From NCBI GenBank assembly GCA_016187175.1, contig JACPKG010000012.1, positions 1-39,315 on the forward strand: a DNA stretch of 39,315 bases, in the 5' to 3' direction. Position 1 is the first letter of the stretch. Each line of letters opens with the position of its first letter. Both the position numbers and the translations under genes were made by a program. The stretch is from Candidatus Saccharimonadota bacterium (GTDB taxonomy: Bacteria; Patescibacteriota; Saccharimonadia; Saccharimonadales; UBA10212). Positions 8,251 through 33,695 of this stretch are shown here, piece after piece. Below the pieces are notes generated by a model. It was not told the DNA's origin. It did not search any database and saw only the letters and a program-made list of their open reading frames with translations.

Positions 8251-9396
8251 CTAAAAAACTGGCGGTAGAGCAATAAGACTATTGATTTTCGGACCAGTAG
8301 TTGGCGTTGGGTTAAAGAACGGCCCGCCGATAGTCATAGCCGGACTGTAATTGATAACTTCGGCTATATTGGAGTTGCCAATGCCTTCACTTGGAGTATC
8401 TTCACTAGTAGAAGCACTGGCCACGTCGCCCTTAACCCGCATAAAATTGACCTGCTTGGCCACCAACGCCCCATTAATTACCAATTGATTAGTGCAGGCG
8501 GTAGCTGGGAAGGTGTAGTGAATCGGATCGGTATTGTTAAGATGACAAGTCCATATATCACCAGCCGTCGTGCTGTTGCTGAGTGGTTGAGCAATATAAA
8601 GTCCGTCCAGTTGAGTAACGCCTGGATCTATGTAAATGTTCCCCTTGGCTACAAGTGCAAATTTGGGCACATTGTTGACTTTATCAAGCTGATAGACAAT
8701 ATTCTGACCGATAAACACGTTACCATCAACGTAAATGGTTATTTTAATACCCAGCCCTAAAGTCACTACTGAGTTGTTCAACGCATAGTTGGTACCGCCG
8801 CCAGCCGAAGCTGTATAGACGCCGGAAGGCGTAGATGAACTAAGAGAAGCTAGTCCTGGGGGCGCCGGACTTGGCAGCTTGCTGTAGTAGTCAGGAATGC
8901 AGTTGCTCTGACGTACGCTACCATCAAATTTACCTCCCCACACAGTGGCAGTGCTGCCATCATTGGCAAATGTCAGTAAGTTTCTTGAGGTGGGAGCGGT
9001 TAACGCTTGCGCCCCGGCACTGTAAAAGCCATACAGCTCCGGATCAGAACCTTCAATAATACCAAGAGCAAAGACACCAAATTGTGAGCTGGCACCGCCA
9101 GCCGAGCGGCCAGCACCGTCTTTTTTAGCGTAACTCAAAATACCGCCAGTGCGATCATCGCGGCTAAAGCCAGAAGCTGGATCGGAGTAGTTCGGATCTT
9201 GATATTTAGAGTCGGTGGACGTATCGCAACTGGTTCCCGAATTAAACCAGCCGCCGCTAAACACATCCGACCCATAGGTTTTAAAATATGGTTTAGTCAC
9301 AGCCAGTACTGGTACGGCGGTCACTAAAATACTAAAACAGCAGGCTAAAGCCGTAGAAACTATTTTTTGTCTTTTAGTGATCTGGGCTGACCCCAT
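8251..9396 (-). CDS. Secreted protein of unknown function, upstream of the pil operon
   Basis: N-terminal signal/TM segment; Cys-containing, Gly/Ser-rich repeated beta-like segments ('VDGNVFIGQNIVYQ…FALVAKGNIYIDPGVTQLDGLYIAQP'). Confidence 0.75.
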   Translation of the reverse strand: MGSAQITKRQKIVSTALACCFSILVTAVPVLAVTKPYFKTYGSDVFSGGWFNSGTSCDTSTDSKYQDPNYSDPASGFSRDDRTGGILSYAKKDGAGRSAGGASSQFGVFALGIIEGSDPELYGFYSAGAQALTAPTSRNLLTFANDGSTATVWGGKFDGSVRQSNCIPDYYSKLPSPAPPGLASLSSSTPSGVYTASAGGGTNYALNNSVVTLGLGIKITIYVDGNVFIGQNIVYQLDKVNNVPKFALVAKGNIYIDPGVTQLDGLYIAQPLSNSTTAGDIWTCHLNNTDPIHYTFPATACTNQLVINGALVAKQVNFMRVKGDVASASTSEDTPSEGIGNSNIAEVINYSPAMTIGGPFFNPTPTTGPKINSLIALPPVF

Positions 9397-9502
9397 CCCG
9401 TTAGAACCTCACCCTTGGTTTACGATGGTTGTTTATCGCTGGATATCCAAATTGCCTCCGACATAAGGTGTGGCTGAAAGTTGCAGGCTGAGGTCTAACG
9501 GG
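9397..9502 (-). promoter_or_regulatory. Leader-like RNA element, copy B, ending at the ATG of the secreted protein gene
   Basis: On the minus strand CCGTTAGACCTCA pairs with TGAGG(U)UCUAACGG next to the start codon. ~82% identical by hand alignment to 33392-33500 (19 differences over 105 nt). Confidence 0.72.
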
Positions 9503-9516
9503 ACCCATACATAAGC

Positions 9517-9545
9517 ATTATATGGACCCGTTAATAGTTTGTAAA
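9517..9545 (-). promoter_or_regulatory. Putative sigma70 promoter for leader copy B (TTTACA-17 nt-TATAAT)
   Basis: Minus-strand TTTACA (9545-9540), 17-nt spacer, TATAAT (9522-9517). Places the start site at about the 5' end of the leader stem. Confidence 0.6.
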
Positions 9546-31985: not shown

Positions 31986-31992
31986 AAAGAAT

Positions 31993-32048
31993 AGGTTACA
32001 GGTTTTAGGTCATAGGTTCTAGAACCTAACAACTCGATCCTAGAACCT
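31993..32048. repeat. 7-nt-period array with dyad symmetry between truB and the DHH-like gene
   Basis: AGGTTAC AGGTTTT AGGTCAT AGGTTCT | AGAACCT AACAACT CGATCCT AGAACCT. Confidence 0.9.
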
Positions 32049-33391
32049 CATTTCGGAGGAATTAGAGGCGGCGGAACAGGAGGAGGCGGTGTTGGATGTA
32101 AAGTCTGGCTGAGCGGTTGAGCACCCAAGCCAGCAATGGGGTGAGCGGCCGGATCAAACGGTGCTGCAGCGGCAGCCTTTTGAACCGCGTCGCGAGCATT
32201 GTCAATTGCGCTTAGGCCGCGATCCATCGATTGGTCGTTCTCACGACGGGCATTGCTTAGCGGATCATCTGTAAAAGTGTCCTTCGGCTCGGACCAGTTC
32301 GGTTTAGTGTCAGCCGAAAACGGCGTATCTAGAACTGGCTGATGAGACGATGGATCGAGAAATGAATGTGGACCGGGTATAGGTCCATCAGACGTTGGCG
32401 CCGGCCGGACACTTGATGGAGAGCTAACTGGTTCCGGCAACGTCGTTGGCTGAGTCTGTGCAGCCGGGATTATATTGCCCTTTTCGTCGATGCGAATTTC
32501 TCCTGTTTTAACCTCTATCTCCGGACTATCCGGTTTTTCTGGTTTATGCGATACATTCAACACGCCGGTCGGCGGCGTTTGGGGCTCTGGCGGTGGTTTT
32601 TTGGGTACTGGCCGAGCACTACTAGCAGGCGGCGGAGCTGGCGGTTCCAGCTTACTGACGATTAATTGCTGATTGGCACCGGCGGCCATCAGTTGGGCGC
32701 TCATGGTCATAACTTTGGGTGAGGTTTTATCATTACTGAAGCGCTTGGTTTCGGCCACTATACCGGTCAAAAAGGCCGTCGCCATTTGGTTATCAATTAA
32801 TCCCGTACCAAAAGCCTCGCTGATACTTACCAGCATCTCACACAAACTGCTGGCCGTAGGATCTTGCCAATTTATCTGTCCAAGCTCCGGCGCTTTATCG
32901 TTACCGGCATTAACCGAAACTACAGTGGCGTCATGTAAAATGCGGCCATGCGCAGTAATGGCTTTATCCAGTTGAGCCCGGTCTTTGACGCCTAAAGTCA
33001 GTACTACTTCAACGTTAAAGTCGCCCTGGCTAAAGACCAGATCCTTTTCGCTCAAAGACGTTTTGTAGGGTGTTATAAAGATGCGTACCACGTCATTTTC
33101 AACTTTGTAGCGCAGTTTATCGGCCTTGTCTTTATCCAGCGAGATAATAAAGTCCTGCAGGCTATCGGTGTTTGTTTCGATGGTTTTTTCCGGCTGCAAA
33201 AATTCGATGGTCGAGGGCACTTGGCCGGAAAAAACCGCCGTGGCATGTTTGTTCATCTTGTTAAACAGCAGCGTCACGCCGATGCAGGCCGCCAGTTGAT
33301 CAACCGAGGGGTTATTGCTAACCGTCACCAAAACATTGGACGCCTGCTTAATGCGTTCGATGATCTGCTGTTTAGCTGCCGCGGGGTCCAT
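32048..33391 (-). CDS. DHH-superfamily-like protein with degenerate catalytic motifs and a Pro-rich C-terminal tail
   Basis: Fold-typical segments 'VLVTVSNNPSVDQLAACIGVTLLFNKMNKHATAVFSGQVPSTIEFLQPE', 'TAFLTGIVAETKRFSN'; DHH/NPDGD motifs absent. Confidence 0.7.
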   Translation of the reverse strand: MDPAAAKQQIIERIKQASNVLVTVSNNPSVDQLAACIGVTLLFNKMNKHATAVFSGQVPSTIEFLQPEKTIETNTDSLQDFIISLDKDKADKLRYKVENDVVRIFITPYKTSLSEKDLVFSQGDFNVEVVLTLGVKDRAQLDKAITAHGRILHDATVVSVNAGNDKAPELGQINWQDPTASSLCEMLVSISEAFGTGLIDNQMATAFLTGIVAETKRFSNDKTSPKVMTMSAQLMAAGANQQLIVSKLEPPAPPPASSARPVPKKPPPEPQTPPTGVLNVSHKPEKPDSPEIEVKTGEIRIDEKGNIIPAAQTQPTTLPEPVSSPSSVRPAPTSDGPIPGPHSFLDPSSHQPVLDTPFSADTKPNWSEPKDTFTDDPLSNARRENDQSMDRGLSAIDNARDAVQKAAAAAPFDPAAHPIAGLGAQPLSQTLHPTPPPPVPPPLIPPK

Positions 33392-33500
33392 CCCGTTAGA
33401 ACCTCACCCTTGGCTTATGATAATTATTTATCGTTGGGAGTCTAAGGTGACTCCGACATAAAGTGAAGCTGAGAGTTGCAGGCTGAGGTCTAACGGAATC
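33392..33500 (-). promoter_or_regulatory. Leader-like RNA element, copy A, ending at the ATG of the DHH-like gene
   Basis: Same outer stem, same SD-in-stem and same CUAACGGG-AUGG junction as 9397-9502. Confidence 0.72.
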
Positions 33501-33549
33501 CATTTTTTATTTTCGCTTTTTGACTATTGTTGCAACAGTAGCATAACAA

Positions 33550-33654: not shown

Positions 33655-33692
33655 GACAACTGTAACCCGTAACCTCTAACCTGTAACCTACA
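33655..33692. repeat. 7-nt-period array abutting the rpsT start codon
   Basis: TGTAACC CGTAACC TCTAACC TGTAACC TACACTT ATG. Confidence 0.88.
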
Positions 33693-33695
33693 CTT

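Follow-up and report, generated by a model that had tools for sequence, protein, structure and literature searches.

As summarised in PMC10969869, Rickettsia palindromic elements (RPEs) are short palindromic selfish repeats that occupy unrelated genes of small-genome bacteria and keep the frame open in coding sequence, where they form internal protein inserts (Ogata et al., 2000). The elements described here share these general properties, but differ in lying at start codons, in a 4-bp target duplication, in usually forming a separate leader ORF instead of a protein insert, in having a nuclease-coding version, and in belonging to another phylum. The likeness is one of description, and we call the present elements RPE-like in effect with no claim of membership. 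MITE-like elements offer a second comparison, with short inverted ends, a target duplication and many copies, most of which lack a transposase of their own. The same features were found here, namely terminal inverted repeats, a target-site duplication (TGRR in 54 of 57 start-codon copies) and empty sites (for both copies studied in detail and for one in rpsB), whereas the absence of a classical transposase with these ends, the strong preference for start codons and the open ORF set the present family apart.

A third group consists of small GIY-YIG genes in CPR rRNA genes, carried by insertions that correspond to introns of neither group I nor group II and apparently lie outside homing (PMC11270868). 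The resemblance lies in the small GIY-YIG genes, in their non-intron insertions and in the Patescibacteria as hosts; the CPR insertions sit in rRNA genes, and the passages of that source which deal with them describe no start-codon family. The nearest solved relatives by sequence of the nuclease encoded by our elements are the UPF0213 GIY-YIG proteins (PDB 1zg2 and 1ywl), which are annotated as hypothetical proteins. Finally, translational coupling across short stop-to-start distances has been experimentally established in other prokaryotes, and such distances are needed for termination-reinitiation (PMC10666635).

The present analysis concerns a stretch of 39,315 nt (the window) of contig JACPKG010000012.1 (GCA_016187175.1), from the 664 kb genome of Candidatus Saccharimonadota bacterium, a member of the Saccharibacteria. 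A first-pass annotation had reported a two-copy leader element in the window, and both copies are indeed present: copies A and B lie on the minus strand at 33388-33503 and 9393-9508, and are 84% identical over 116 nt without gaps. On sequence comparison, the two are very probably non-autonomous members of a family of very small, selfish, palindromic mobile elements that target start codons. The account as a whole, comprising the element, its insertion at start codons, the leader ORF and a GIY-YIG protein as the likely mover, has in our estimate a probability of about 0.87. The features on which it builds are as follows.

33391..33498, minus strand: copy A, 108 nt, from TTCCGTTAGACCTCA to TGAGGTTCTAACGGGA; its final base doubles as the first base of the ATG of the gene.
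33499..33502, minus strand: upstream TGGA duplication of copy A; with 33503 it forms ATGGA, the original start codon.
33387..33390, minus strand: downstream TGGA duplication of copy A.
33396..33503, minus strand: leader ORF of copy A, MDSVRPQPATLSFTLCRSHLRLPTINNYHKPRVRF*; its stop codon lies 4 nt before the next ATG.
32048..33391, minus strand: target gene of copy A, 447 aa; called DHH-like in the first-pass annotation, no Pfam match.
9396..9503, minus strand: copy B, 108 nt, from TCCCGTTAGACCTCA to TGAGGTTCTAACGGGA.
9504..9507, minus strand: upstream TGGG duplication of copy B; with 9508 it forms ATGGG.
9392..9395, minus strand: downstream TGGG duplication of copy B.
9401..9508, minus strand: leader ORF of copy B, MGPVRPQPATFSHTLCRRQFGYPAINNHRKPRVRF*.
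9517..9522, minus strand: TATAAT, putative -10 box, 8 nt ahead of copy B's first ATG.
8251..9396, minus strand: target gene of copy B, 381 aa, secreted-type, ahead of a pilM-like gene; no Pfam match.

In both copies the start codon is present twice, as ATGGA[element]TGGA in copy A and as ATGGG[element]TGGG in copy B, with the layouts ATGGA-[TTCCGTTAGACCTCA ... TGAGGTTCTAACGGGA]-TGGACCCC and ATGGG-[TCCCGTTAGA ... TCTAACGGGA]-TGGGGTCA, respectively. A 4-bp direct repeat, TGRR, borders the element, and the A of the second ATG is the element's own terminal base. An ORF of 35 codons opens at the upstream ATG, spans the element and closes with a UAA 4 nt short of the gene's ATG. An outer stem terminating at the AUG, as originally proposed, is present in both copies, with MFE values of -39.6 (copy A) and -42.0 kcal/mol (copy B) and z = -5.6 and -4.7 against shuffled sequences. 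The TATAAT upstream of copy B is probably a -10 box, in which case the transcript would begin at or near the duplicated start codon. The target gene of copy A has matches in 14 of 15 relatives, and is flanked on either side by inverted-repeat stretches resembling AGGTTACAGGTTTTAGGTCATAGGTT (window positions 31987-32048 and 33664-33695).

The corresponding sites are empty in several relatives. At the copy-A site, the same-genus genome G001 reads ATGGATCCAGCG / ..aaaaataaaaaATGGATCCAGCGGCAGC with no insert, and the site is also empty in G003, G004 and G005, while G006 carries a different element type at this very start codon. The empty sites of copy B read TATAATGCTTATGTATGAAT and TATAATGCTTATGTATGAGA in G001 and G002. 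A copy within rpsB is decayed but in frame in G002, and absent from G001 and others. These empty sites show that the copies are insertions. The identical start-codon junction of copies A and B is real, but what had been taken for regulatory design is the footprint of insertion, given the TGRR duplication and the empty sites. The duplication of the start codon had gone unnoticed, as had the 35-codon leader ORF and the multi-copy nature of the element, and the fallback explanation of a recent 5′-UTR duplication is ruled out by copy number, TGRR duplications and empty sites.

BLAST of the host genome returned 11 full or near-full copies, the two in the window included, and several partial ones. 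The terminal inverted repeats of the family are TCCCGTTAGA/TCTAACGGGA. The end CCCGTTAGA occurs 22+22 times in the genome versus 3+3 times for the reversed control, nearly always in inverted pairs 65-272 nt apart, and the total comes to about 25 elements with differing interiors: a 108-nt type (n = 11), types of 103-111 nt, a 65-79-nt type and a single element of 274 nt. All but two are at start codons, where a few copies have one intact end only. The first exception is an in-frame insertion early in rpsB, MAVANVD[PVRSKSPKATAGSQSTNRTSNGI]DIKELL, with the duplication TAGA; the second is a compound copy at C22:28836 (L063). The latter and L105, in G006, are nested or tandem copies, which lack a clean target duplication and look as if one element had inserted into or beside another. 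The genes hit (among them dnaG, gyrB-like, frr, L36, L19, gatC, pheT-like, murB, a sugar-nucleotide dehydratase and an ABC ATPase) are unrelated housekeeping genes and form no regulon.

For a wider comparison, 40 regions from seven other genomes were read for element copies, and the combined set with the host genome comprises 57 deduplicated start-codon copies in 7 genomes (58 in some counts). The TGRR duplication is exact in the 54 copies given above. With its A contributed by the element, the codon on the downstream side is invariably ATG (57 of 57), although that on the upstream side is GTG in five copies. The target consensus consists only of (A/G)TGRR and an AT-rich stretch upstream; a perfect TATAAT lies 6-10 nt upstream of the start at 12/58 sites, which suggests leaderless starts. 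With the window taken as a sample and the gene set chosen by visual inspection of the listed ORFs, start codons were estimated to make up 22% of the RTGRR sites that could be hit without gene breakage, yet they hold 22 of 24 copies (p = 5e-13). Both orientations of the element are found at start codons (L107 and L110 versus L099 and L114), and the preference thus lies in the target, not in what the element carries.

Among genomes of the same genus and family, G001, G002, G006 and G013 are rich in these ends, and G007, G009 and G010 have none. Of 294 Patescibacteria genomes sampled across the phylum, 17 contain the strict end pair (control: zero). The copies read from this sample are mixed, some with the 4-bp duplication and some without, and only part of them at start codons; the start-codon rule is therefore taken as established only within the Saccharibacteria set, and not phylum-wide. 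In another family of Patescibacteria (L215-L217, in G115, G128 and G082), the same ends lie directly before an apparent start codon, ..TG[TCCCG..CGGGA]TGG.., without a 4-bp duplication and with at most TG common to both sides.

The 274-nt copy of the host genome (C13:17288-17559) encodes MNPVRASMFYIYVLRSKRSRKLYTGFASDLRKRL..., a GIY-YIG protein (Pfam PF01541, E = 9.6e-16), whose ORF is read from the duplicated start codon and ends as an ATGA overlap with the next gene. Some members of about 274 bp carry an 86-90 aa GIY-YIG nuclease between the ends of the family, at start codons; this arrangement is also found in G005, in G029, in UBA6824 of the Saccharibacteria, in two Kaiserbacteria and in a Parcubacteria genome with an end that differs slightly. 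The GIY-YIG motif and the catalytic Arg, His and Glu are conserved, with Y16, G18, R26, H30 and E62 invariant in 13 sequences, and by these residues the element protein is predicted to be a functional GIY-YIG nuclease. No classical transposase (DDE, HUH, serine or tyrosine) was found within the ends of elements up to about 320 nt, the GIY-YIG gene being the only one there. Carriage by viruses was considered and rejected, as the element nuclease was not found in viral contigs; six of these (L244-L249) carry the strict palindrome TCCCGTTAGA-N30-60-TCTAACGGGA.

The GIY-YIG protein is the candidate that we favour, with some reserve, as the mobilising enzyme of the family. The reserve stems from G006, in which about 25 elements are present and no GIY-YIG copy was recognised between family ends, and from G013, whose GIY-YIG copy is broken; on both counts the mover could be another enzyme, and the assignment is kept only somewhat above even odds. 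The main alternative, which we consider possible but rather unlikely, is that an unlinked enzyme moves the elements and that the GIY-YIG gene is a passenger using their ends. This would fit the absence of a classical transposase with these ends, the element-rich genome G006, and the small GIY-YIG genes that also occur elsewhere, at RNase P RNA and 16S rRNA. It sits poorly with the recurrence, in distant lineages, of a GIY-YIG gene with the same ends and the same start-codon site, and with a second start-codon repeat family that is also associated with a GIY-YIG gene.

This second family has the ends CC(C/T)AGTAGTGAGC ... ACTACTGGG and the duplication TATG or TATAA, and its GIY-YIG gene is likewise found at start codons. 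Individual members vary in their setting. L242, in the host genome (C1:83562), is bordered by TATAA on both sides, which places it in a TATAAT-like box; L195 and L197 have the GIY-YIG gene after an ATG; and L167, in G006, is a copy without the GIY-YIG gene, fused in frame at the orthologue of the copy-B gene.

Under the preferred account, that of a mobile family moved by its GIY-YIG nuclease, an element would insert into TGRR at the start codon of a gene and duplicate these four bases. The last A of the element would complete a new ATG, which would serve the gene, and the original start would remain upstream of it, together with the promoter. This upstream codon would then open a leader ORF through the element which, depending on the frame, would stop 4 nt before the ATG, overlap it as ATGA, or read on into the gene. 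Expression of the gene would follow by termination-reinitiation or through fusion at the N-terminus. The ATG of the gene could be hidden by the outer hairpin, which a ribosome reading the leader would open. Essential genes probably tolerate the insertions because the open frame through the element keeps translation going. The ~274-bp GIY-YIG members are likely to be the autonomous elements that move the short ones. Both the current mobility of the elements and the expression of the genes through coupled translation are inferred here from sequence.

It is an even question, in our judgement, whether these features amount to a new type of transposable element, complete in about 274 bp, moved by a single nuclease of about 90 residues, aimed at start codons and permitting gene expression in all three frames. 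The ORF of such an element would borrow the promoter and start codon of the host and hand a fresh ATG back to the gene. To our knowledge, no single GIY-YIG protein of about 90 aa acts as a transposase. If the reading is correct, the GIY-YIG element would rank with the smallest autonomous transposable elements known. It is a candidate minimal transposition system that can be tested directly, and its start-codon targeting and readability in all frames would be a so far undescribed way for selfish DNA to inhabit essential genes in streamlined genomes. The insertions alter the annotation of start codons, leader ORFs and N-termini in Patescibacteria (e.g. of ribosomal protein S2), and the elements offer an explanation for the abundance of small GIY-YIG genes in these bacteria and perhaps for the unexplained non-intron insertions in their rRNA genes. 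No description of a start-codon insertion family was found in the literature searched, most subscription journals and preprints being outside the search.

The frame of the leader ORF is under constraint. It is open to the gene in 52/58 start-codon copies, versus 3/58 and 0/58 for the other two frames. In the deduplicated set it is open in 51 of 57, of which 38 stop 4 nt before the ATG, 11 end as an ATGA overlap and two are in-frame fusions; the right end TCTAACGGGATGR is compatible with all three exits. The 108-nt type shows no nonsense change where 8.5 were expected, and as copies of one element type share ancestry, such counts are not fully independent.

The open frame also bears on a further proposal, namely that the elements are mobile in origin and have been retained at many genes since their leader ORF and hairpin became useful as translational control. 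Elements are found in more than one genome at several orthologous genes (the copy-A gene, dnaG, frr and a murB-like gene), and sharing of this kind, with several orthologous start codons occupied in two genomes, could reflect retention for function rather than chance. However, the element types at the copy-A gene, dnaG and GDPD differ between genomes, which indicates repeated insertion, copies are absent from close relatives, and an open frame is equally expected from the simple avoidance of damage. We hold retention for control to be improbable.

The first-pass annotation had favoured a cis-regulatory RNA. As a rival explanation, this would have the hairpin conceal the ribosome site of the genes of a regulon until a ligand or protein opened it. 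Several observations speak for it: the strong outer stem (z about -5), the position in the leader, and covariation in the short variants. The short type forms a three-way structure in which 12 of 27 pairs show two-sided changes, and covariation of sub-terminal pairs is seen across element types. The hairpin matters, be it at the DNA level during transposition or at the RNA level within the leader. In the 108-nt type, by contrast with what a riboswitch would need, 18 copies chosen by that length, and aligning without gaps, conserve the outer stem alone, and no interior consensus fold or aptamer core was found across them. The genes concerned are unrelated (from gyrB-like, dnaG and frr to L36, L19, gatC, pheT-like and murB), the start codon is duplicated, sites are empty in relatives, and both orientations occur. 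A riboswitch-like regulator is very unlikely on these grounds. What stands of the original claim is a repeated mRNA-leader element with a conserved outer stem, and its placement outside the known riboswitch classes has held up: no Rfam model matched the window at gathering score, nor did a relaxed threshold yield any meaningful match around copy A. With neither a match nor a conserved core, a riboswitch or other Rfam RNA was rejected.

Two further readings can be set aside as scarcely credible. A conserved leader peptide acting through sequence-specific ribosome stalling or attenuation might be read from the constant 35-codon length of an ORF ending just before the gene, but in the 108-nt type the three codon positions are equally variable in entropy and the synonymous share is 0.29 versus 0.25 expected, so that the peptide is not conserved, and other element types encode unrelated leader peptides; codon-position and synonymous-change tests together rule it out. 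Equally far-fetched is that the ribosome bypasses the element by hopping between the two ATGRR sites, or that the element is removed from the RNA, with the product unchanged: matched codons around a hairpin do resemble the take-off and landing sites of bypassing elements such as phage T4 gene 60 and the yeast mitochondrial byps, but the gene is already restored by the downstream ATG, expression can proceed normally from each of the three exit frames, the rpsB copy retains an open in-frame insert, and there is no match to an intron family. A group I or II intron was rejected, with no Rfam match to a catalytic core; elements of 65-110 nt are too short for either.

Small GIY-YIG genes were also seen apart from the two end families. 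They lie in long hairpins in the 5′ part of RNase P RNA in the host genome (L191, C3:4354-4566) and in G031 (L189), and within a 16S rRNA gene in G002 (L183); Rfam places RNase P RNA next to L191 and L189, and 16S rRNA across L183. Others (L187, L190 and L198) are beside tRNA genes, and that of L190, in G022, is flanked by two partial tRNA-like copies (about 36 nt repeated), as if it had been inserted into a tRNA gene with duplication.
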